From NCBI GenBank assembly GCA_950295325.1, contig OX485806.1, forward strand, positions 46,371,169-46,435,168: a stretch of 64,000 bases of DNA, given 5' to 3'. This document shows, piece after piece, positions 20,130-49,600 of the stretch (positions are counted from its first letter, which is position 1; each line of letters starts with the position of its first letter). Below the pieces are notes generated by a model, which had not been told where the DNA came from, searched no databases, and saw only the letters and a list, made by a program, of their open reading frames with translations. The position numbers and the translations under genes were made by a program. Source of the DNA: Polytrichum commune (taxonomy: Eukaryota; Streptophyta; Polytrichopsida; Polytrichales; Polytrichaceae).

Positions 20130-20680
20130 GATAAATCCATCTATGTTCAGATACCTATTGTTTTGAAACATTATTATGAAGACATGACCGCCATGACTAC
20201 TCATGTTCAACCTCACCGACAAGCTCCAATAGATGCATGACTTCGTTGTATGTATGCGTTGGAGCATGAATGAACTTGTTGTTCTCATAATCCAATTTGC
20301 AAAGAAACTTGAACACATAATAAAAGTGTTTGTAGGACACCTACAACATTTTCTCCCCCAAAAAACCTGATGACATTTTAGTGAAGTCCGCACATGTGTA
20401 TTGAGGGATATCTCCAATTATTACATGGTAAGACGTGTCCTCTTTGGAGATGATGTTGATGATCACTCCAAATCCTACATATGGAATGGCAATGACAACA
20501 TAGTATCCATCCATGAGTAAAGCACTCTTCCATGTGTATTTGTTATCCATTGACGATATTGTTGGATTCCAACACACCGCCATTAACATTTTGGAAGTTG
20601 GGTGGACATTAAGGTTTGGTGGCTCACAAAAATGTGGCGACGTGTAAATAGTGTTGCAATTGTTGAAAGTTCACAATGAG
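20130..20680 (-). pseudogene. SWIM-type transposase, C-terminal fragment
   Basis: Minus-strand frames match the C-terminus of the transposase at 40001-43954. Shared segments are MDGYYVV, GFGVIINI followed by SKEDTSYHVIIGDIP, and DFTKMSS, then HAPTHTYNEVMHL. The SWIM motif is damaged: the first Cys of C-x-C is Tyr (QYTCADF), and a frame change follows near 20350. The N-terminal and DDE parts are absent. No methyltransferase-like sequence lies beside it. It is a truncated relative of the large element further right. Confidence 0.75.
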
Positions 20681-29939: not shown

Positions 29940-30060
29940 GGGGAGTGCTATCATGTGAGCGGTGAGCAGTGAGCAATGAGCAATGAGCAGTGACATGTGA
30001 GTGGTGAGGAGGGAAAGGATGTTGGTTTTACACACACTTGTATCCTATAACTGTGGATTT
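29940..30060 (+). repeat. left terminal repeat of the outer element
   Basis: It starts GGGGAGTGCTATCATGTGAG, continues with reiterated GTGAGCRGTGAGCAATGAG motifs, and then has ACACACTTGTATCCTA. It closely matches the left end of the inner element (33351-33475) and, inverted, its right end (44145-44268). The matching right end of this outer element was not found. Confidence 0.7.
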
Positions 30061-30499
30061 TTGACATGAAGTATATGAACACTATCCGTGAAAATATAAA
30101 GGGGGATGGAAAAAATTATCTTTATTTTATAAATCTACATTAGTTTGATTATGTGCAAATGCTTAGGTTGTTTCTTAAATTCAAAAGTCAATAGAAGCGG
30201 CCAACACGTTGTTAAATAAATGCTATGCCAGTAGAGGCACCTTAATGGATAAATGATCTCACTTATAAAAAACTTGAAATCCATGAAAACCAAGTTAGTT
30301 TAAAATTTTGAAAACAAAACCCATTTATTGCAATCATCTAACAATCTCCACATTGCATCCAACAAAACTGGTAATTTTTTCAAAATTCTCAAAATCAAAC
30401 CAATTGTCAAATCAAATCAATTATCATATCAAATCAATTATCAAATCAAATTAATTATCAAATCAAATAAAAAAACAACACCAAAACAAATATATTCAT

Positions 30500-33340: not shown

Positions 33341-33350
33341 TGTTACAATC
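33341..33350 (+). repeat. target-site duplication, left
   Basis: TGTTACAATC directly precedes the inner element. The same ten bases follow its right end at 44269-44278. Confidence 0.8.
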
Positions 33351-33475
33351 GGAGAGTGTTATCATGTGAGCGGTGAGTAATGAGCGGTGAGTGATGAGTA
33401 GTAACTTGTATACGGTGAGTGATGAAAGATTTTTGGAAATACACGCACTAGTACCCTACATCCGTGGTATTTTAG
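33351..33475 (+). repeat. left terminal repeat of the inner element
   Basis: It starts GGAGAGTGTTATCATGTGAG, then has GAGCGGTGAG/GTGATGAGTAG reiterations, then ACACGCACTAGTACCCTA and CCGTGG. The same order occurs at 29940-30060 and, inverted, at 44145-44268. Confidence 0.75.
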
Positions 33476-34905
33476 CATAAATAATAGCTTAAGGGTTTGA
33501 AAAAAAAAATAATATTGTTGTTGGATTCAACATCCAATTGTAATATCAATGCAAGCACCTTCCAAATATTGCTTTGAACTATATTTCTAAAATTTATGTA
33601 AGTTTGAGAAATGAATTGATGGAGGTAATTAAGTTTTAGGATATAGGGTTCAGGAATAAGAGGAAATTGCTTACACAATTCAATGTTCACTAATGGTGGT
33701 AATTTAAAATGATGAATCCGAACTTTGTCACACATCCAACCAAATAATATCCAATCCAATCATATCCAATCCAATCAAACACATAGTGGATGGTATTGAC
33801 AACTACCTAAATGTCCCTAAACTAATTTAGCTTAATCATTTAGATCATCGCATTGAATCGCCTCATCATCTACATACGGGTTACGAGCAATTCGTGCAGA
33901 CATACGGCGAGGTGTTGGCGTCATTGATCTTGCCATGATTTGAGCAACATTTTCAGCATATACTGGCAAACCATATTTGGAGATGAAGTCATGTTGTTCT
34001 TTTTTCTGCGAAATAAAATCACAAGTGTTAGAGTTCTAGTGCACACATACCAGACATTGGAGGCCAAGTTAGCAAACAATATGGAAAAATAAAAAACTTA
34101 CGTACTCAATCGATTTTTTCTCGCAACCTTCTTAACATGCTCTTCATCGGAAATTGATGGAGGCATTATGTGGCATAAATCCACCTACACTAGTAGTTAG
34201 TAGTGGATCACTTAATGGGGATAGAATGGCATCAAACAATGTAGAATCTTCCTCGTATGCAACTAGATGGCGGCCACTATTTCTGCAAGCATGAATAGAT
34301 GCACCTGCCAATGAAATGTTGCAATGTCAGTTAATTTGCAAAAACCATTGACAACACTATAGTGACTTCATTAAAACACATTGAGAGATGATATAATAGG
34401 TCCTTGAGTAAGAGATAAACCAACCTGTAGATGTGTAAGCATCGAGAACAACCGATGCGGGGGTTGTTAAAGCCTCTATTAAGATTTGCATAGATTTTGA
34501 GTCCTTCTCCCTACCACCTCTCCATGGCACTTTTCCGTTCATGAGTTGAGTGCTCACCGATGTAAGATTGAAAAACACATCCAAGGCCTCCACATCCACC
34601 TCAGTATTTCCGTTTATTTTTTGAAAAACAAACTCCGACTTGGGAGTAGAACGAAGAAACAACATGATGCGGAAACGACGAGTCTATAAATCACAAGAAA
34701 TTTTTTACCGGAGGAATCGATTGCAAAATTGAGGAGAACATTGCAATATAATGAAAAAATAGAAATCAAAGTAATAAATAATAAAGTTTAATGTATACCG
34801 CCAATGACCCCGGGTACGCAATTTCCATATTATACGCAAGGGGCATCGTATTAAAAACGGCTTAGAGGACGGCTTTTGTAAAAATTATATCAAATTAAAA
34901 TGATT

Positions 34906-35042
34906 AAAAAGTTGGGTGAAAACCAAATTAAATAAACTGAGATGAAAAAAAAATTGGGTAAAAACCAAATTAAATAAAATGAGATGAAAAAAAAGTTGGA
35001 TGAAGACCATATTAAATAAATGAGATGAAAAAAAATTGGGTT
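34906..35042 (+). repeat. tandem repeat, about 46-47 bp, three units
   Basis: The units contain GTTGGGTGAAAACCA, AATTAAATAAA and TGAGATGAAAAAAA, repeated three times with minor changes. Confidence 0.7.
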
Positions 35043-35398
35043 GCATATTTATTAAAAAAAACTCCAACGTATATAAACAATTGAAACACCTAGTTTTTTA
35101 ACCTTGTAGAGCGTCTAAGAGGGGTATTCAATGTAGATGTCGGATTAATATTCACAAATGATAGAGGGTTCTTTCAAGGTTTCCCTCTTTTGGAAGGAGT
35201 TGTGGCAATTACAGGTGTAACATATTTTTTCTCCCTATCTCTACCTCCACTACATGAGCCTCTACGCTTCATCTCACAATCCATGTGTTTGTTTAAGTGA
35301 AGAATGACCCTCCCAAACGAGCACAAGCACGCTCCAAAGCGACAACACAAAGGCTCCAAAACCGAACACAAAAGCTTCAAAACGAATATATAGAAGCC

Positions 35399-35424
35399 TC
35401 AAACCCTAAGCCCTAACCCTAAAC
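35399..35424 (+). repeat. short interstitial telomere-like motif
   Basis: It reads AAACCCTAAGCCCTAACCCTAAA: three variants of the plant telomere unit CCCTAAA. Such short boxes are also common near plant transcription starts (telo-box), and the frame at 35290 starts ~110 bp downstream on the minus strand. Confidence 0.6.
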
Positions 35425-38400
35425 CGGGAACCCATGATATTTTGAAATACCCCATCATATCCTTGAGTAGTCGGGGCACCATATGATGTATATGGTCTTA
35501 AAAATACATACCTCAACTGTATCCTAACACAAATCATTAATTTTCTATCCCAACAGTTAGACCAGTAAGTTGCCTATACATGATTTTAAAAAATCCACAC
35601 GAATATTTGCCTCCAATTAGAACTATAAGCCACGAATAGTTGCCTCCCATTAAAATTATAAGTCATTCACAATGTTAAAATTTTATTTAAAAGTCGAAAA
35701 AGTTGGGTAGTTTGACCTATGGTACATGTATTAAAAAAATCATATAATTAGGTTTTTAATGCAATTATATGCTTCAAAATATATTCATATCCTATATATA
35801 ATTACATTTTTTGATTCCTTGTTAGAAGGGCTACAAGGGTTTCCTACATTAAAACAGATTGTATCACTCAATATTGGACTAAAACGCATTATAAGTGATT
35901 ATGATCAGGACCATATAATACGGGAGTTGCGTACGTGGGTCAACGACGTGTCAAATGGATAACACAAAGGCAACTTGTTGAAGCCCCACCAATTTTTTCG
36001 CAATACAAAATCACAAGAGGCTACGAATATCCTTACATCGTCTCTAACATCTTTCTTCTTAGGGACAAACTAAAGCAAAGGGCCATCATCGGTGAGATAT
36101 GCACATGCAAATTCAAATAGAGCCTCAATGTTTTTTCTCTTGTGGTCGTTCGAAGGTGGGATTAGATATGGAGGAGATGAAACGTTAGGTACAGGTAAAC
36201 CTTCTAGAAAATCTACATTAATAAGATCAAAACTTCCAAAACTACAATCCTCTGAAGAAACCCTCCTCTTGCGTCCAGAACCCACCTATCAAAAGAACCA
36301 AAAAACAATAATTACACTCAAGTCCAAAGCATGTTGCAAAATCAACACCATATTTTATAAAATAAAAATAAATTCAGTATTCAATATACTGACCTTAGTC
36401 ACAAATTCAAATGTTTTCAACATTAACGGATTCACATGACCATCATTCTCCATCAATATTTGTATTGAAATTTTCTCCAACATCACTGAAGAAATTGGCC
36501 TAGAAGGTGAAGCACCATTGACAATGGTTTTTGACACATGTTGAGATCGTAGTGATCTCGAAATGGGACAAAACTTAGGTCCATCATTGCCTTGAGTGCT
36601 AGTTGTAGATGTTGAGGGACTAGGATTGCGTGCCATAATACCAGTTTGAGATGAAGGTGTTGGATTAGCCTCATCCACCTTTAAGCCACGCTTATGTCTA
36701 GTTTTTCCCTCCGATTTGACTACTTTCACCACACACACATCCTCATTGTTTATCATGTCAATATCATCAGGAGGCAAACCTATTAGACATGATTGTTTCA
36801 TGAGCTCCTCCTCCTCACTTGAACAAAATATAAGAGGACACTCAATGAACCATGGATAAGATTGCAAAGTGGCATAATCCCATATTCTTATCTGGGTTGC
36901 CGTAAAAATGCAAAGGTCACTAGATTTGTCAGCCCATGAAGAGAAACAACTTGGAATGGAGCCCAAGGAGATGGCGTTTGAAGCCAATAACTCGTTTTTT
37001 ATGTACCTTTGACACAAAATAACAAGTTAATTAAAGTTAGTAAATTAATTATTTCAAGGCAAACTTCAAGCATGCGATGAAATAATTGAAGTTATAAAAC
37101 AAAAAAATATAGAGTACTTGAATACCACTCGTTTGATAGCAATGCCTCCACCAAAAATTTTACCGAGTAGACCTAGATTTTGGCAATGCACTCATGCCAC
37201 CAAAAAAATGCCGGATTGCTTTTGTTCAAAGCATAATGCGCCATTTCTCAATGTACTAAGTAGGCCTAAGTATAGGTGCGCTCCAAAGAATCTTGACATT
37301 CATTTCTTTTTCCATATTATCAAATTGTTTCACAAAATCATCTTCCAACTGCAAAATGACACATATGCATCACGACCATTGACCAAATCATAAAACATTA
37401 AAGTTTTGAAATGAAAACACATAGACATTTAAGGATGAGGGAAAACCTGGGCCCAGAATGACGCTTTGATCAATTATTTTTCAAGTTTTTTTTCATTAAT
37501 ATCTCCCAATGGGAAGCGCAGAGATTCACGGGACATATCGCTAGAATTCTACCACCTCAACCATTTGATTTTGAAGATTAATTTCACTGGAGCAGTTGCA
37601 ATCATTTGTAATTTTTATAGGATCATGGTATGCTCGGAGTGATCTCCAAAATGTTTATTGATTTGTGAAATGGAAGGTGAAAATAGTAAAAAAATTCTCA
37701 TATAGAATGTCGAAATAAATGCTATATAGAAAAACATAATAACTTACCTCATCCAAAAAGTTGAACCCATTGGCTGGATTTGCGACAGCGAGAAGTTTTT
37801 CAAAAAAAATTCACGAATTGATAATATTTTATTTTTTTGCATTCCGCATGACATCCTAAATACCTTTTGTTGTCCTTGATTGAAATGGGATTTTCTCATT
37901 GTATTTACGAGGTGCATTTTCAGTCATAGAGGCTATCTTATGCTATATAAACAAAAAATAAGAATTAGTTTAAGGTTCATTAGTAAAAATATCTTCAATA
38001 ACAAGGCTTAACATGAATTAAAATACCTACCTTATATAGAAATTGACTAAAGACTAGAAACATACATGTTCACATCATGCATAGCATTTAGAAAAAAGGC
38101 CACCGAACCAGTTGATTCAAGTACGATACAATCAACAGAGTAATGTCACTCTCTATCTTCTTTATGCAGCCTATCGATATGGCGGCGCCAAGCTGTCACC
38201 CAATGGTTACCCTTCCAAACAAAAAACATTTTACCACAAAAACTTTCATAATCTTTGTAATTCTTGAGGATTTCCTCAAATGATTTATTGGAAGATTGTC
38301 AGTACTCTCCCCAAGTATCTGCATCCCGAATATCCATAGTATTTTCATCTTTGTCATATGGAGATACGTATAATACCCTATCACCCTCCCTATAACCATT

Positions 38401-39495
38401 CACAAATTCATTCTCCAAAAGTTAGACATCGATTTCCAAGATTGAACTCACAACAGGCAACGGTATTAACCGACAAAGAAAGATTGAAAATCTTAGCTTT
38501 GAAAACGGCTTCATATGAAGTCCTCCAATCAAATAATTGAAGTTGGTATTTTGCAAATCTCGCATATGATACAAAGTCTCTTCCACATTCAACAAATCAT
38601 AAGGCAGTGGAGGACCGCTATCGTCATCTCCACCATCCTGAAATACAAATTACAAATAAAATAAAATAAACATACAACTATTAAAAAAAAAAACATTCAA
38701 TCCAACTGAATAAACATTATTCGTCAACAAACAACCACTCACAACAAAAAGCTAAGCCCTCAACCTTTTAGAAATCCTTCTAGCTTCAATTTCAACCTTT
38801 AAGCTTCTTCATTGAAAGTCTTTGATGCACTACAAACCCATCAAGTAAATCACACAACAACTTCCAAGCATACATATCAAAGCAAGATACAAGTAATGAA
38901 GATAAACAAGTGCAAGAAGAAAGACAAAAATAAGACATGAAGAGGCAAGAAGAAAACCCTAAAATTCCAAAAAACCTAGTCTCGGACCCGGAACTCACTT
39001 TGTTAAAATTTTGATGTTTTTTCTTGCTTCTTCATTTGTTGTTTTTGTGGACATTAATGTCTCATTCTCAGCACCTTATGAAAGCAAGGGCTAGATGAAG
39101 GTGATGAAATCCGTGCCCTCAACCTTTAAGAAACATTTGAAGCATTCAAATTCAATCTTCTTACCTTAAGCTTTTGAACCGCGGTGGAGTTGCCCCCTCC
39201 ATCAATTTCCATGCTCCCTCTTCCTTCTTCTATCAAGCGTCTTCTTACTTCATCTTCTATACCATCTCCTCCTTCTTCATCTTCATTCAAGTCTTCCCCT
39301 TCATCCTCGGCTTCAGAAGAATATTCTTGGTGTCCGTAATTCTTTCCGTATTGGTTTCGCCTCCAATGTAAAATGTTGAGCCGAGCCTATCGAAGTATCT
39401 TCGTCTCCGGGCTTAAACAATATAGTTCTCGATGTCAAAAATGCCTCTCCCTCATAGACCCTACTCAAATTTTTGCCCATTCTTGATCTCGCCAA

Positions 39496-40000
39496 TGTTT
39501 TTATGGTGGAGTATTTAAAACCACCCCTCTTTCTCTTCTGCTTGTTGGTGTCGCATAATCATGTTCTTGCATTTACAACTTTAAAAATATTTTAGGTCTC
39601 TGCATGCGCTTTTTGCATAACCTAAAAACTCTGCTTCACTTTGAAGTTGTAAGAAGTTTGAAAAATATCATAACTCATTATGTCTTGTTCTTCTTTGGGA
39701 TTTAGGGTTTATTAATGGCCCACCACCATCATCTTTGAATCCCAAACATTAAGATATTGAATTTTATTTGGAAGCTAGAAATACGCTATTAAAATATATT
39801 CCTTGCATTGATCATTGTCTATCCAATGTAAGCAACAACTGGCATTATTTTTTTTACACCTACCAACCCATGTGCATCATCTATTTCAATAGACATTCAT
39901 CTAATATATTTTTCAAATCCACAAATTAAAATTTTTAACACACAATATAAGTAGGTCATGGTTTCCATAGTGTGATATACATTGCATCCACACATTCTTC
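39496..40000. other. divergent intergenic region of the inner element
   Basis: This lies between the start of the minus-strand methyltransferase-like gene and the plus-strand transposase, so it would hold both promoters. Plain AT-rich sequence is seen; no clear TATA box was assigned. Confidence 0.4.
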
Positions 40001-40130
40001 ATGGCTACCATCCGTGCTCATGGATCCTTTGTATCCTTCAATTTGCCTCTTGAGGGTGATGGTTGTGTGGTTGTTTTAGAAGATTTGCTTGGTTTGAGAT
40101 TCAACCTCCAAATAGGAACCATTTATGTAG
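40001..40130 (+). repeat. first copy of a duplicated transposase 5' segment
   Basis: The frame from ATG 40001 reads MATIRAHGSFVSFN, then VVVLEDLLGLRFNLQIGTIY. The same protein start recurs from ATG 40357 (MATIRAHGSFVPF) with a small deletion and in-frame stops. The second copy runs into the rest of the transposase frame, so the 5' end was tandemly duplicated with ~356-bp spacing. Confidence 0.65.
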
Positions 40131-40356
40131 AATTTCCCATTTATGTAGATTATTTTTAGGATCTCGTTTAGGATTCTATGTCTTGCTTGTAAATATTCTC
40201 TGAATACTATTATGATTTGTCTCCTTTTGTATTATTAGATGCTATGGTATCACATGTTTTCATTTCCATCCATTATTATATTATACATCATTCAATACAA
40301 AAGGGACATTGATCCAATATTATTGTGAGGTGTTGTTTATCTATTCTTTGTTCTTC

Positions 40357-43300
40357 ATGGCTACCATTAGAGCTCACGGATCTTTTGTTCCCTTCAAGAT
40401 GATGGTCATGTGGTTGTCTCGGAGGATTTGTTTAGTTTGAAATTCAACCTCTAGATAGGAACCATATATTTAGAGAAGGAGATGTACTTTGCAGATGGAG
40501 AGGTGTGTGAAACAATTTTGGTTCAAAAAAATAGAACTGAGGTTGGTTTTATGTGGATCTTAGGACCTGGTTCATTTAGAGTGATAGGTCTTTTTGAGTC
40601 TCAGATGCAAACTTCAACTGTTATATTGACAAACGAATCCGGTACATCCATAGTTCAAATTCCCTATGTTGCACCTGTTAAATTAGAATCCACTGATGAT
40701 AATGTGTTAGTTCTATAAGATTTAGAAGATGACCTTTGTGCATCTGTTGATCTTTCAAACACATCACCGTTTTCATTTAAAAGTGTTCATTCCACTTCTT
40801 CACAACTTTCTATACATGTAGCCAAATCCCCATGCGGTCCTATGTATAGGAGGTTGGTTCCTCAAATCTTACCTTCTCAACGTCCTCCACTACACCCTTC
40901 ACCTTCATCTGTAGGGTCTACTATCGTTGATGCCTTAAAGCTTACAAAGTCAAGAAAAAAATCAAAGTCAAATATCGCATCCATTGATTTTGACAATATA
41001 GATGTTCGTGATGTCAAGTACTTACCATCTTTTTTTAATGCCGACGTTTTGTTTCTCTTGCCCCCTGTGGCACTTAAAGTTCCAAGTACGTATGGCCACT
41101 CAATGGACGACATGAATAAGATGTGCGATGGTCACCTTTGGTGCACCACCAAAACCACGAATATCCAAAATGATTTTGGATTATCCTTCTGGCGGTCTAC
41201 TTGTGCAGGTCATCTCTAATGTCCTAATGACTATTGTGATTACATGCATCGCAATGGGGGTCTCCGAAACAACACCGAATGGGTTGGTTCAACTCCTCTC
41301 CCATTTGTTGTGGGGAATATTTCCCCTATTAGGTCCACTATTGAGTGTAAGGTATGTCGTTCTACACCTGTGTGCATTTCTTTGTGTCATGCTCGAATAA
41401 TATACATCCACTCCACATCTGTTGGTATGTCCAGGGTTTGCATTCATCTTGGTGTACATGATCATCCTGTGGCCAATGGCACATGCTGTGAATCATTGGA
41501 CATGGCATACCAGTGCGTTGCAAATGAAGTATTGAAAACACCCACAGTAAAAAACTTCAGCCATAGTTATGGCAGCGAGCAAACAATTTCTGGCCGATTA
41601 CCTTCTCAAATCTCCCGCTAGTGGCGAAAACCATCACTTGGTTGGTTCATCTCTAGAGGTGGTCATGGACAAGTTCAGCACTCTTGCGTCCCCAAATTGT
41701 CGTAATTTTGTATCTGGATCAAAACGTTTTTTGCATAGTAGAATGGAAACTATGGATAGTATTATGGCACATAAAGACTACTTTGCTTTTAAGTTCGTCC
41801 ACTGTAGTCAGTTCCCAGGGCAATCAAAAGATAAATTGTTTATTTTCAAGATGTCTGTAGACCTACCAGGTAGTGGTGTGGAACTTGTGAAGAAGATGCA
41901 AGTCGGGGGGGAGGATATGGAGAATTTTTGGATTATGTTTGACCATATCAAACGTTTGAAAGATTGGACGATAATGGTTTGCCCTGTATACAACAGTCGA
42001 TACTGTAAAGTGTTAACCATTGCGTGCTGTGATATGCAATATAAAAATGATGCACCACAATTTCTTTTTTGGGAAAATTTGAATTATGTCACGGCAAAAA
42101 ATGGTGTATCAAACGTAAACTTCAAAGGGTTTATGGCTGATAGTGTTCAAGCTAATTGGAATGCGGTGAGGACAATTTATGGGGATGGTGACCCAAGTCT
42201 CCCCATGGTTGCATGTGAGCGTACATGTCTTTTCTATTGATCTACGAGCTTGGATAAGGTGACCCAAAAGTATATCAAACCATCCTTGCAATTTCAACAC
42301 AAGCAAATATGCAAGGATTACAAAGACGCGAAAATAATGGACGACGCCGAGACTAAGTATCATGTGATTCGTTCTTGGTGGTTGTCATCCGGAGCTGCCT
42401 CGGACGAAGGCATCCTTGGCCTTTCAAAGTAGTTGGATTTTTGGCACTTTCATTACAGACAATGGGGTGGTCATATGTTATTTGTAAGTACATATCAAAA
42501 TTCATTATTCAATGTCATTCAATTTTTTTCCACTATTATATATATCTTATGTTTATTTTATCCTCATATTTGTTTCTTGTTCATAGGATATGACAATAGA
42601 AGAAATTGAGGAAATGCCAACTTGCAATTTTGCAGAGACTGTACACAACAAATGGCTCCAATAGTCCGGTAACAAGATGACTTATTTATATGAAGCTATA
42701 GTGGACGACATGATCCGTGCCTATATGCAAATTGCAAATTACTGGACATGGTTGAAAGGGGAGTCTAATGGTAAAGGTCATGGTTCGGCATCTTTGAAAC
42801 TCAAAGCGGCTACGAGATGTGGAGATCCAAAAATGTTGGTTGATGCCATGAAGGCTTACCCAGAGACAGAAGACATCAACACTAGAGATTGTACATTGGA
42901 AGGGTTAGAGCTCTTTGGTTCCACCAAACGCAAATTCAACCTACCACCGAATTTTGATTGTGACTCTCATCGACCCGACAAAGTGAATTATTCCATTTTT
43001 TGTCCCAACACCCGAGCAATTCGTCAACGCATAGAGGAATTATTGATCTCTGCAATTCATGGTATGGCTCATACCACGTCCGTGTTAGAGACTGATTGTC
43101 TTGCTTCTAAGTGGCACATTGCAAGATTACCACCCAACTCAGCCAAACGATGTTGAGCACTGCAAGCCATTACAGGGACTATGTGCAATGCCAAAGTCGA
43201 GACTGGAAAACATGGCACACCTACTCCAACATACAAAGGACTCATGAAGGAATTTCACTCTCTCAACAATGTGGAATATGAATTTTGGTTTTGCCTTGAT

Positions 43301-43954
43301 GACATTAAGCGTTGTGTGAGTGGTAGTAAGAAGAAATATGTGTTAGATTGGCCTATAGTGCCCAACACGTGGCCGGTGAAAATAGGTACCAATCTATCGA
43401 GAGAGGAGATTTTGGCACTTGAAGATGTTGGATTTCAACTACAGCAGAAGGAGGCATTGTCCCCTCGTCGTAGGTTTTCAACAATCACAACTCTCCCCAT
43501 CCCTCGCTTTTATTTTCGTATGCCACCAAACCCGGACGCCCACCCTACATTCAAGTTTGGGAAGACAGTGCGTCGTAATCCAACAGCACCGCTGGCGGAT
43601 CACAAAAACAAATGGGAGAGCGTCGGACTCATGGAAGGTTACTATGTGGTTGGAGTCACTGCCATTCCATATCCGGGCTTTGGAGTGATAATCAACATTT
43701 TTTCCAAGCAGGATATCACATACCATGTCACAATTGGCGACATCCCCCATTGCACGTGTCCAGACTTCACAAAAATGTCCTCTCAAGCATTGGGAAAGAA
43801 AAGGATATGGATGTATTGCAAACATCTTTATTATGTGTTAAGATTTTTGTGCAAGGTGGATTATGATAGTGATAAGTTCATTCATGCACCTACATATACG
43901 TACAATGAGGTTATGTGTTTAGTTGAACTTGCTGGTGTTGTAGAATATGAGTAG
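40357..43954 (+). pseudogene. SWIM-domain (Mutator-like) transposase of the inner element
   Basis: One frame runs from about 40482 to 41550. It includes a Cys/His-rich segment (about 41220-41490: CPNDYCDYMHRNGG, later CKVCRSTPV and HLGVHDHPV) that looks zinc-binding. A +1 frameshift near 41560 leads to a frame with FIFKMSVDLPGS, LTIACCDMQ and KGFMADSVQANWNAV, the last a candidate DDE-site Asp at 42139-42141. A GT-AG intron (42484-42586) keeps phase 0. The C-terminus has a SWIM zinc finger, C-x-C-x19-C-x-H (Cys at 43751 and 43757, Cys 43817, His 43823), and the frame ends at 43954. In-frame stops at 40716, 41217, 42238, 42430, 42662 and 43154 disable it. Known SWIM transposases bind terminal repeats and catalyse excision and integration in the nucleus. 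Confidence 0.8.
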
Positions 43955-44144
43955 TTGTGCAAATGTTGGTTGTAACTACATGTATAAGGATGTCAATAAA
44001 TGACATGTATTGGTTTGAATTATTATAATAAAAATGAACAATAGATTGAAAGTGTTTTAAATGATCCTTTCACTTGTGCTTCACTTAAATACTGGCAATT
44101 TACAATTGAAAATATGCAATTAATTTGTCAAAAATTTGATTATG

Positions 44145-44268
44145 TACCCTAAACCCGTGTGTCTTTACTAAATTTGGATTCATTGCTCATATGTTACTGC
44201 TCATTGGTCATGTGTTACTGCTCACTGCTCACCGCTCACTGCTCATCGCTCATAAGATAGTTTCCCTT
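44145..44268 (-). repeat. right terminal repeat of the inner element
   Basis: On the minus strand it starts AAGGGAAACTATCTTATGAG, runs through GCGATGAGCAGTGAGCGGTG and similar reiterations, then has AGACACACGGGTTTAGGGTA. It is the inverted counterpart of 33351-33475. Confidence 0.7.
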
Positions 44269-44278
44269 TGTTACAATC
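44269..44278 (+). repeat. target-site duplication, right
   Basis: TGTTACAATC, identical to 33341-33350. Confidence 0.8.
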
Positions 44279-45619: not shown

Positions 45620-46950
45620 CATTCATGCACACACATTCTCATTCTCATTCCATATATACACTCTCACACATAGACACTCACATACACACATATATATATT
45701 ATCACTTACATTCACATAAACATTATCACACATATAGACAAACCACACACACATACACATATTATCACTCACACTCACATATACACTTAACTAAACATAC
45801 ACATACATACATATTCAAACACACTATCACTATCACTCACATTCACATATACTCTCTCATACATATATATAAATCACACACACATACATATTATCACTCA
45901 CTTACACTTACATACACACTTACCTAAACATGCACATACATACATATCACACACACATTATCATTCATATTCATGTACTCTCTCATACATATACAATCTC
46001 ATACATACACACATATTATTACTCACACTCACATTCACACTCTTACACACTTACACTCTCATACTCACACATATATAAATGTGCACACACATTTTCACAC
46101 ACACACACATTTTCATTCATACAAATATACACATACCTTTGTCAATGCATTTGGTGAAGACATTAGATTACACATTCCAAACCCTAACCTTTGGATTATT
46201 TTTCATATCCACACTAACAATCTTATCATTACACTCACATATATATTCACACACACACACACACACACATTTTCATTCATACAAATATACAAATATACAC
46301 ACATACATTTGTCAATGCATTTGGTGAAGACATTAGGTTACACATTCCAAATCCTAACCTTTGGATTATTTCTCATCTTCACACTAACACTCTTATCATT
46401 ACACTCACACATATATTCACACACACACACACACATTTCTATTCACACAAATATATAAACATACCTTTGTCATTGGATTTGGTGAAGACATGGGGTTGCA
46501 TACTCCAAGTTCCTCGTTTTTTATTTATCTTTTATATCCACACTAGTACTCTCATACTCATACACACATTCTCATTTATTCCCTCACACATTTATAGTAA
46601 ACCCTAATATTGCAAATATTGGGTTCCACACTCTAAGTTCCTCACTTTTGGCTTGTCTCTCATATCCACACTTACACTTCCATTCTCACACTCACAACTA
46701 CATTCTCACTCCCACCCACATACACATTCTTACTCACATTCTTACACTAACACACACATTGTCAAATATTCTCATTCACACTTTCACACTCTCATCCTCA
46801 CATACATACATTGTCATTCACACTCTCAATCACATTCTCATTCATACTTTCACATACTCACTCACACTTATACACACTCACATTCACACACACATTCTCA
46901 CTCTCATACTCAAACACTTATATAAAATCCTAAAACTATTCATATATTGT
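45620..46950 (+). repeat. TCACAC/TACACA-rich simple-sequence domain
   Basis: About 1.3 kb of imperfect CA- and TCACAC-rich sequence with strong strand asymmetry (C/A/T on plus, almost no G). Long frames encoding Thr-His repeats are composition artefacts. A longer unit is embedded three times (about 46138, 46308 and 46465): TTTGTCAATGCATTTGGTGA, then AGACATTAG and ACCTTTGGATTATTT. Confidence 0.85.
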
Positions 46951-46984
46951 ATGAACACAAATTTGCGAATTTCTTAGAATTTTT

Positions 46985-49600
46985 TGGAAGTTTGGGCATT
47001 CGTTATAAAACTTTTTAGGAAAGGGGATCAATATATTCTTTTAAGTGGCATCTCGGATCCGAGATGCCACTTTCAAAATGATAATCGATCCCCCTTACCC
47101 ATAAGGTTTTATAACCAACTAAAAAAAATCCCTAATTATTGAGCTGATGTGGGAGGGCAAATTTCTCAATTTTGTGGAATTGTTTTGAACAAACTATGAA
47201 ACTTTCCAGGCAAGGGAGATCATTTGTCCTTTTGAAAGGGGCATCTCGGATCCGAGATGCCACAATATAAAAAGGAAAAACATCTACCTCCCATAAAAGT
47301 TTAAAAACAATTCGAAGAAATTTCAAAAAAATCACACAATCCAAAACTATTGATATATTGTATGAACACAATTTTTGGAATTTGTTGCAAATTATTTAGA
47401 TTTTTTTGGAATTTTCAAGCATTAATTATAAAACTTTATGGGAAGGGGGATCAGTATATTTTCTAAAGTGGCATCTCAGATCCGAGATGCCACTTTCAAA
47501 ATGATAATCGATCCCCCTTGCCCATAAGGTTTCATAACCAACTAAAAAAAATCCATAATTATTGAGCTGATGTGGGAGGACAAATTTCTGAATTTTGTGG
47601 AATTGTTTTGAACAAACTATGAAACTTTCTGCGCAAGGGAGATCATTTGTCCTTTTGAAAGGGGCATCTTGGATCCAAGATGCCACATTATAAAAAGAAA
47701 AAACATCTACCTCCCATAAAAATTTACAAGCAATTCGAAGAAATTCCAAAAAACTCGTACAATCCAAAACTATTGATATATTGTATGAACACAATTTTCG
47801 GAATTTATTGCAAATTTTTTAGAATTTGTTTGGAATTTTCGGGCATTAGTTATGAAACTTTATGGGAAGGGGCATCAATATATTCTTTTAAGTGGCATGT
47901 CGCATCCGAGATGCCACTTTCAAAATGATAATCGATCCCCCTTTCCCATAAGGCTTCATAACCAACTAAAAAACATCCATAATTATTGAGCTGATGTGGG
48001 AGGACAAATTTCTAAATTTTGTGGAATTGTTTTGAACAAACTATGAAACTTTCCGGGCAAGGGAGATCATTTGTCATTTTGAAAGGGGCATCTCGGATCC
48101 GAGATGCCACATTATAAAAAGATAAAACATCTACCTCCTATAAAAAGTTACAAGCAATTCGAAGAAATTCCAAAAAACTCGCACAATCCAAAACTATTGA
48201 TATATTGTATGAACACAATTTTCGGAATTTATTGCAAATTTTTTAGAATTTGTTTGGAATTTTTGGGCATTAGTTATGAAACTTTATGGGAAGGGGCATC
48301 AATATATTCTTTTAAGTGGCATGTCGCATCCGAGATGCCAATTTCAAAATGATAATCGATCCCCCTTGCCCATAAGGTTTCATAACCAATTAGAAGAAAT
48401 CTATAATTATTGAGCTGATGTGGGAGGACACATTTCTGAATTTTATGGAATTGTTTTGAACAAACTATGAAAGTTTCCGGGCAAGGGAGATGATTTGTCC
48501 TTTTGAAAGGGGCATCTCGGATCCGCGATGCCACATTATAAAATGAAAACACATCTACCTCCCATAAAAGTTTACAAACAATTCGAAGAAATTCCAAAAA
48601 AAATCACACAATCCAAAACTATTGATATATTGCATGAACAGAATTTTTGGAATTTGTTGCAAATTATTTAGATTTTTTTGAAATTTCCGGGCATTAGTTC
48701 TGAAATTTTATGGGAAGGGGGATCAATATATTTTTTAAAGTGGCATCTCGGATCCGAGATGCCACTTTCAAAATGATAATCGATCCCCCTTGCCGATAAG
48801 GTTTCCTAACCAACTAAAAAAAATCCATCATTATTGAGCTGATGTGGGAGGACAAAATTCTGAATTTTGTGGAATTGTTTTGAACAAACTATGAAACTTT
48901 CTGGGCAAGGAAGATGACTTGTCCTTTTGAAAGGGGCATCTCGGATCCGAGATGCCAAATTATAGAAAAAAAAAACATCTACCTCCCATAAAAGTTTACA
49001 AACAATTCAAAGAAATTTCAAAAAAATCCAAAAAACTTCCAGAGAACTCACACAATCCAAAACTATTGATATATTGTATGAACACAATTTTTGGAAGTTT
49101 TTGCAAATTATTTACAATTATTTGGAATTTTCGTGCATTAGTTATGAAACTTTCTGGGAAGGGGGATCAATATATTTTCTAAAGTGGCATCTCGGATCCG
49201 AGATGCCACTTTCAAAATGATAATCGATCCCCTTTGCCCATAATGTTTCATAACCAACTAAGAAAAAACAATAATTATTGAGTTGATGTGGGAGGACAAA
49301 AGTCTGAATTTTGTGGAATTGTTTTGAACAAACTATGAAACTTTCCGGGCAAGGGAGATCATTTGTCCTTTTGAAAGGGGCATCTCGGATCCGAGATGCC
49401 ATATTATAAAAAGAAAAACATCTACCTCCCATAAAAGTTTACAAACAATTCGAAGAAATTTCAAAAAAATCACACAATCCAAAACTATTGATATATTGTA
49501 TGAACACAATTTTTGGAAGTTTTTGCAAATTAATTAGAATTATTTGGACTTTTCGGGCATTAGTTATGAAACTTTCTAGGAGGGGGGGATCAATATTCCC
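46985..49600 (+). repeat. tandem array of ~424-bp units with paired palindromes
   Basis: Six units and a partial seventh. Each contains palindrome A (starts 47047, 47470, 47894, 48318, 48742, 49186) and palindrome B (47240, 47663, 48087, 48511, 48935, 49379). Spacing is 423-424 bp, and 444 bp for the last unit. The consensus half-site is GGCATCTCGGA followed by its reverse complement, centred on a GGATCC site. Around A the symmetry extends to 32 bp (AAAGTGG...CCACTTT) and imperfectly to about 50-bp arms. B has diverged arms of similar sequence, so A and B probably derive from one hairpin. Some copies have mismatches (47894, 48318, 48511). Confidence 0.9.

Follow-up and report, generated by a model that had tools for sequence, protein, structure and literature searches.

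The window analyzed here, a 64,000-nucleotide stretch of contig OX485806.1 of Polytrichum commune, contains a DNA transposon whose family is built from two modules: a right module with a transposase gene and the right end, and a left module with a divergently oriented, methyltransferase-like gene. Across the genome the two genes occur as a pair, and left and right modules have been exchanged between lineages. The copy in the window is one such chimera; it is dead and sits inside an older relative. Taken as a whole, it is quite probable that this is a Mutator-like transposon with an exchangeable left module, the product of which is not an ordinary methylase and would act as an accessory factor in the manner of VANC from the Arabidopsis VANDAL elements. 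The anatomy, the pairing, the exchange and the state of the window copy are observed, and it is the action of the transposase and the function of the left protein that we infer.

The element in the window is a terminal-inverted-repeat DNA element with two divergent genes inside (33351-44268), as the earlier note on this DNA had it when it described a 10.9-kb segment with a 10-bp duplication and inverted ends. The duplication, TGTTACAATC, flanks the element at 33341-33350 and 44269-44278. The terminal inverted repeats (33360-33405 and 44214-44259, 46 nt, 80% complementarity) lie within a left end region at 33351-33480 and a right one at 44161-44268 (all of these features are unstranded). Both ends consist of inverted arrays of the heptamer TGAGYRR, with six in the first 150 bp and seven in the last 150 bp against 0.13 per 150 bp in the interior; in seven other elements tested, the corresponding figures were 4–13 on the left, 5–9 on the right and 0.02–0.23 in the interior. 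When the left 300 bp was searched against the genome (408 Mb in 64 contigs; 66 matches, with the best 40 of 318 candidates scored), 21 other matches reached the end, starting at query positions 7–16, and 17 of these began at 10–11, the first base past the duplication, so that the left boundary is not due to chance. All other left-end matches started at query position 27 or beyond (counted by eye). The right end gave at least 40 matches genome-wide (best 40 of 753 candidates). Seven of eight complete elements tested by script have target duplications of 8–12 bp: 10 bp in W (the window element), D, G and H, 9 bp in N, 8 bp in M and 12 bp in B, where two of the bases fall within the element end; element A has none. 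Neither gene of the window copy is intact: the transposase frames contain stops, and one stop interrupts the motif-IV exon in the methyltransferase-like gene. The copy is dead.

Is the methyltransferase-like gene a resident of the family? The earlier note had proposed that it is and had named, as the outcome that would refute this, transposase copies consistently devoid of the gene. Checked genome-wide, this outcome did not occur. A methyltransferase-like match lies divergently upstream, within 30 kb, at 78 of the 93 transposase loci (71 A-type and 7 D-type), at a median distance of 9.5 kb (range 6.2–29.1 kb); the three other gene arrangements were found at 0, 1 and 1 of the 93 loci. In 200 trials of random placement, with approximate lengths for two contigs, the number of paired loci averaged 0.56 and never exceeded 3, and chance adjacency is rejected. 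The input consisted of 142 A-type loci, 17 D-type loci and all 93 transposase rows; second rows of the same locus, A-type rows already counted and secondary exon rows were left out. Family sizes are lower bounds, because only the best-scoring candidates were scored (76 of 1,417 for the D-type query, 150 of 1,002 for the A-type query and 93 of 3,355 for the transposase exon). Both of the unpaired transposase loci that were inspected also carry the gene: at one, the 10 kb examined showed neither its 3' part nor the left end, and at the other, the left module had been missed by the queries. The divergent order is kept even in lineage K, with a transposase that is only 43–45% identical. The gene is thus resident in the family and not a captured fragment. 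Individual elements were selected in different ways: A and B from right-end matches; C, D, F, I, J and K from methyltransferase matches; G and H from left-end matches; M and N from loci with both; and P and Q from unpaired transposase loci. Because of how they were selected, the presence of the gene in C, D, F, G, H, I, J, K, M and N is no independent test.

The pair is not, however, one fixed unit, and here the reading of the earlier note needs correcting. Pairwise DNA comparison of ten elements, leaving out the outer 200 bp of the left end, showed that the right modules of A, B, D, F, W, N and Q are 84–97% identical where aligned (those of N and Q align over 128 bp only, at 78.9%). Four left modules, A/B, D/F, W/N and Q, accompany this single right-module group. 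Between these left modules, 228 (A-Q) and 361 (B-Q) of 6,401 bp could be aligned; for all other cross pairs the figure was 0. For A and D, the right modules are 87.9% identical over 4,550 bp, with 95.7% identity over 752 bp at the right end, and 0 of 7,860 bp align on the left; for W and A, the right modules are 88.5% identical and nothing aligns on the left; for A and Q, the right modules reach 92.6%. The opposite combination is found as well. The W/N left module is 85–94% identical to those of M and G, the right modules of which are 70–81% identical to W/N and 71% to each other; between W and G, the left halves are 93.5% and the right halves 69.8% identical, and between W and M, 85.1% and 76.7%. 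The left half of the window element occurs with three transposase groups. These contrasts between left and right reject a fixed gene pair without exchange: the modules have been exchanged between lineages, in a reticulate pattern.

The window copy still carries the seam. At 39995-40131 (+) it retains what is left of a first transposase 5' end, which is nearer to that of M, and the M/G-type left module ends and the A-type right module begins within 40122-40177 (unstranded), after which a second transposase 5' end follows at 40351-40474, nearer to that of A. The window copy is therefore a chimera, joined at the 5' end of the transposase gene.

The methyltransferase-like gene runs on the minus strand of the left module. 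In the window, its pieces are, from the 5' end, N-terminal reading frames (39129-39558, assigned by their likeness to lineage M), a ParB-like exon (38149-38691, ParB by motif only), the region of exons 2 and 3 (37444-38054), a central exon (36358-37026) with at least 150 matches in the genome (best 150 of 936 candidates), the motif-IV exon (35938-36285), which reads VDFLEG and has its stop further in, the exons of motif I, of S-adenosylmethionine-binding type (34101-34683, DAYTST/GAS), and a C-terminal exon with an LPVYAENVA-type motif (33835-34035, a reading frame chosen as an exon by comparison with the model of copy F). An insert of about 1.1 kb (34808-35938, unstranded) is absent in the relatives G and M. 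For the best copy, F (C5:16.86 Mb), manual prediction without transcripts yielded a six-exon model with GT-AG junctions that is open over 1,239 aa.

The earlier note had called this gene methyltransferase-like, and as regards the fold this stands: the 577-aa exon of copies D and F matches the Pfam family N6_N4_Mtase (PF01555) with 32.4 (L008) and 29.9 bits (L009), above the cut-off of 26.7. The window, A and K pieces are assigned to the same family because they are homologous to D-type copies. The catalytic part does not stand as readily, motif IV being non-canonical in all 24 loci in which it was read (12 elements, 11 short A-type loci and Q; 13 of the 24 in clade A). Where (D/N/S)PP(Y/F/W) would be expected, the PP occurs in 0 of 24; one proline is kept in 23, the window copy having none, and at the fourth position 23 loci have D, E or Q, whereas copy D has Y (DIPYG). 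With the PP gone from motif IV throughout, and the aromatic residue gone from every copy read but one, the left protein is unlikely to be an ordinary methylase, and "methyltransferase" describes its ancestry rather than a demonstrated activity. Motif I, with the consensus D-x-F-x-G-x-G, reads DLFVGTG in C, DLSVGTG in D, DFSVGTG in F, DLTCSTG in A, DWQCGVG in K and DAYAST/GAS in M. Upstream of the methyltransferase part, an exon has a (D/E)GNHR motif, kept in six of six rows, which we take to resemble that of ParB proteins. This motif is all that remains of the ParB assignment: the ParBc profile gave no Pfam match up to E 10 in three lineages, and the region had only weak matches to unrelated proteins among PDB profiles.

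Searches farther afield found little. PDB profiles gave nothing relevant for the methyltransferase region, a PHROGs search gave only weak methyltransferase matches (best E 5e-4), tblastn of the methyltransferase-like exon against phage records gave no match, and scans of viral and prokaryote contigs found no close relatives of the gene. In the genome itself there are 11 PF01555 matches: all 8 on large contigs sit in D-type copies, and 3 are on the small contigs C10 and C12. These two contigs have long open frames, match N6_N4_Mtase strongly (98.5 and 68 bits) and are probably bacterial contamination or a symbiont. Tandem repeats were also noted in several left modules. In I and K (L014+L016 and L013+L018), the methyltransferase-like gene has a long minisatellite past its 5' end, with repeats of TSLHTQNKPKCLIRTHVLEHIKEASDPRPHSQ; in K this minisatellite lies between the two genes. 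A and B have other tandem repeats within the left half.

What might such a protein do? The right module consists of a two-exon transposase, probably of DDE/SWIM type, and the right end. The left module encodes, divergently and in several exons, a protein that in the best copy is about 1,240 residues long and has a ParB-like region ahead of a putative beta-class amino-methyltransferase fold. The transposase would presumably act at the heptamer-array ends. The left protein would most likely bind element DNA by way of its ParB-like and methyltransferase-like regions and, by analogy with VANC, shield the element from silencing or tune its expression; a swap of left modules would then change the specificity of the accessory factor. 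That this pseudo-methyltransferase with its ParB-like region is an exchangeable, sequence-specific anti-silencing or DNA-guiding cassette, swapped wholesale between lineages with the transposase half conserved, is a tentative proposal, which we put a little short of an even chance. An active DNA methyltransferase with an unusual motif IV, one that marks element DNA with N6-methyladenine or N4-methylcytosine (6mA/4mC) and thereby controls the transposase or keeps host marks out, is unlikely. The fold above the Pfam cut-off would fit such an enzyme, as would the nearly canonical motif I of C and D and the DIPYG of copy D, but the missing PP and the D, E or Q at the aromatic position do not, and the rotifer enzyme N4CMT, which has SPPY, lost its activity when Ala was substituted for the catalytic Ser and Tyr (PMC8885841; here and below, statements about published work apply to the portions of each source that are drawn on).

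The transposase gene is found in an A-type copy as two exons with open frames of 742 and 455 aa. In the window, exon 1 (40351-42429, +), of A type and including D1 and D2, is decayed, and exon 2 (42578-43951, +), with a SWIM-like CxC...CxH pattern, has internal stops. The earlier note had identified a SWIM transposase of Mutator type, and the inverted ends, the 8–12 bp duplications and the motif pattern agree with this, but profile matches are weak or missing. SWIM scores 13.0–13.7 bits against a cut-off of 19.6, the CxC...CxH pattern being recognized by eye, and the Pfam MULE family (PF10551) has no match in the single transposase proteins tested, nor, by eye, any match near the 93 transposase loci among the best 150 of 271 candidates of a genome scan. 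The comparison by hhalign with eight in-genome MULE proteins was not significant; its lone segment covers the second D and the C-x2-H. PDB profiles gave nothing relevant, and a scan of viral contigs with the transposase alignment found no relatives. D534 and D600 are invariant in five of five alignment rows, the C-x2-H after the second D is present in A, F and K and altered in D and the window, and exon 2 has an NLAExVH motif resembling the E motif of the in-genome MULEs. A D-D-E core with C-x2-H between the second D and the E is what we take to be the Mutator-type signature.

Because Pfam MULE is unmatched, membership in the Mutator group rests on the ends, the duplication length and the motif pattern, and is likely. 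Mutator-like elements make duplications of 8–11 bp (PMC6446971), and the end structure and duplication length of the window family fit. It is rather improbable that the transposase represents a separate, undescribed superfamily. The lack of PF10551 matches and of a significant hhalign result would be expected of one, yet such a superfamily would have to share the 8–12 bp duplications and the inverted ends. It would also need to have the second D followed by C-x2-H, where the single hhalign segment happens to fall, together with the NLAExVH and CxC...CxH motifs.

The two genes evolve at different rates. For two methyltransferase-like exons in clade A, the ratio of nonsynonymous to synonymous substitution rates (dN/dS) had a median of 0.76 (91 pairs, range 0.39–4.57), the sample being 13 loci chosen mostly for open frames plus A and B; that 13 of these 15 are stop-free is a figure biased by the choice. 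Pairs with 150 or fewer shared codons, all involving L029, were left out of the median (L029 is without the motif-IV exon, and L023 without motif-IV residues). The transposase exon had a median of 0.21 (45 pairs of 10 copies, a different set from that used for the methyltransferase-like gene), and 0.10–0.16 between clade A and D/F. The A-type motif-I exon is stop-free in 50 of its 62 best-scoring rows (by eye; best 150 of 1,002). From the stop counts and dN/dS it follows that the left gene is kept open in many copies and yet is fast-evolving.

Could the left halves then be one orthologous gene that diverges very fast, without any exchange? The faster evolution of the left gene within clade A would point that way, but this explanation is very improbable. 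The left halves of A and D are wholly unalignable, introns and intergenic DNA included, against 95.7% identity in their right-end stretch, because of which rapid protein evolution alone is insufficient, and the left half of the window element is 93.5% identical to that of G, the right halves being only 69.8% identical. Hardly credible at all is a Pack-MULE style capture, a host gene fragment hitch-hiking in one burst: although Mutator-like elements are known to take up genes (PMC6446971) and one sub-lineage also holds a kinase gene, a captured host fragment is rejected by the pairing at 78 of 93 loci, by the layout kept in lineage K and by the large-contig PF01555 matches, all in D-type copies (the other 3 of the 11 being those on C10 and C12).

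Several observations weigh against the two-module transposon as set out here. As to the pairing, the inspection covered 2 of the 15 unpaired loci, no terminal inverted repeat was found for lineage K, and the complete elements G and H have no match to the stretch holding the ParB-like exon, although both have moved. As to the exchange, A and K share 976 bp at 94.4% in left stretches that are otherwise unalignable, possibly a shared later insertion. As to the left gene, a fully open model was found in copy F only; crude transfer of the F exons gave four internal stops in C and one in D; the whole spliced F protein scores 23.1 bits, under the PF01555 cut-off; and no Pfam methyltransferase match was found for the exons or pieces of the window or of lineages A and K. 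Most motif-I exon rows beneath the best 62 contain a stop, and a dN/dS of about 0.76 is close to what relaxed constraint would give. As to the transposase, there are the unmatched MULE profile and the non-significant profile-profile comparison.

Elements that pair a transposase with a gene of this kind have precedents. The closest are the VANDAL elements of Arabidopsis (Hiun), in which VANC is variable and the transposase VANA is much more conserved, the targets of VANC lying in tandem repeats (PMC5735166). The likeness extends to the Mutator type, the conserved transposase, the fast accessory gene and the non-coding tandem repeats. VANC, however, has DUF1985/DUF287, where the left protein here has a methyltransferase fold (DUF1985 was not among the Pfam matches of the proteins tested); anti-silencing has been demonstrated for VANDAL (PMC5735166), and here it is suggested by analogy; and whole-module exchange is not reported in the portions of PMC5735166 drawn on. 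Fungal DNA transposons with TET/JBP dioxygenases (Kojima 2025, PMC12730594) likewise have a second gene for DNA modification that has been passed between transposon lineages, but the enzyme is another one, the hosts are fungi and the superfamilies are KDZ, hAT, EnSpm and others; MuDR is named there in passing for VANDAL and SET elements. Oomycete MuDR and Harbinger elements with SET genes (PMC12730594, PMC6446971) also have a second gene for a chromatin-modifying protein, of the histone methyltransferase family rather than of DNA methyltransferase type.

Mobile elements that encode a DNA methyltransferase-type protein are also found among the retrotransposons of dinoflagellates and charophytes (PMC5890265). 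Their enzymes are C5 methyltransferases of shown activity, whereas here an amino-methyltransferase fold with an altered catalytic motif is carried by a DNA transposon. The N4 methyltransferases of Marchantia and of bdelloid rotifers (PMC8885841) are likewise bacterial-type amino-methyltransferases in eukaryotes, one of them a bryophyte; the rotifer enzyme keeps an intact SPPY, and neither is described in the parts of that source drawn on as carried by a transposon. The open-access literature yielded no account of a plant DNA transposase that has a gene with an amino-methyltransferase fold as its resident partner, and a search of the main text of PMC6446971 and PMC13317346 for the word "methyltransferase" gave no match. 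Thus, fungal DNA transposons with DNA-modification genes and VANDAL elements with anti-silencing genes were already known, and what is new here is that the left and right halves are exchangeable between lineages. Exchange of accessory modules is a testable route by which elements could escape family-specific silencing, and the several natural combinations of left and right modules within one genome would make it possible to ask whether the choice of elements to be methylated depends on the accessory half.

The window element was itself inserted into the methyltransferase-like gene of an older, more diverged relative, as the pieces of the older gene flank the insertion in order. The 5' part, on the minus strand, lies to the right (45469-45056, 44876-44700 and 44609-44343: the ParB-like exon, exon 2 and the first half of the exon 3 region), and the 3' part, from the second half of the exon 3 region to motif I, to the left (33088-32867, 32447-32094, 31755-31414, 31242-31060 and 30993-30772, −), so that the insertion falls between two halves of the third piece. 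A left end with 75% identity to that of the window element follows at 29940-30061 (unstranded). The second copy of the gene beside matching terminal repeats that the earlier note had pointed out is therefore real, along with its left-end-like repeat, but it is an interrupted older element; a separate, intact second copy is rejected by the position of the pieces on both sides of the insertion. A transposase belonging to the older element was looked for to its right, as far as the window reaches, and not found. Also to the right of the older element, at 46926-49596, is a tandem array of units of about 425 bp, 88–90% alike, with palindromic GGCATCTCGGATCCGAGATGCC-type blocks. Another relative has left a diverged transposase exon-2 fragment at 20200-20652 (−), with 55% amino acid identity.

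The kinase-like gene mentioned above is an additional component of the C/D/F left module (L009:5384-6493 at C5:16.869 Mb, and L007 and L008). It matches PF07714 with 24.7 bits (cut-off 23.1) and scores under the cut-off for PF00069; a tblastn search of ten other elements gave no match. Each of the 14 strongest kinase loci in the genome (E up to 8e-21) has a D-type methyltransferase-like match no more than about 6 kb away, judged by eye. A different, highly repeated family, seen at L052:4288-6411 (C7:23.05 Mb, −), has a kinase-like frame of 708 aa with about 28% identity to the transposon kinase, and in many of the copies listed for it the frame is likewise 708 aa long and the match is free of stops. 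Elsewhere in the genome, 14 light-harvesting genes with the same Pfam score are found within 95 kb, at C5:1751760-1846160.

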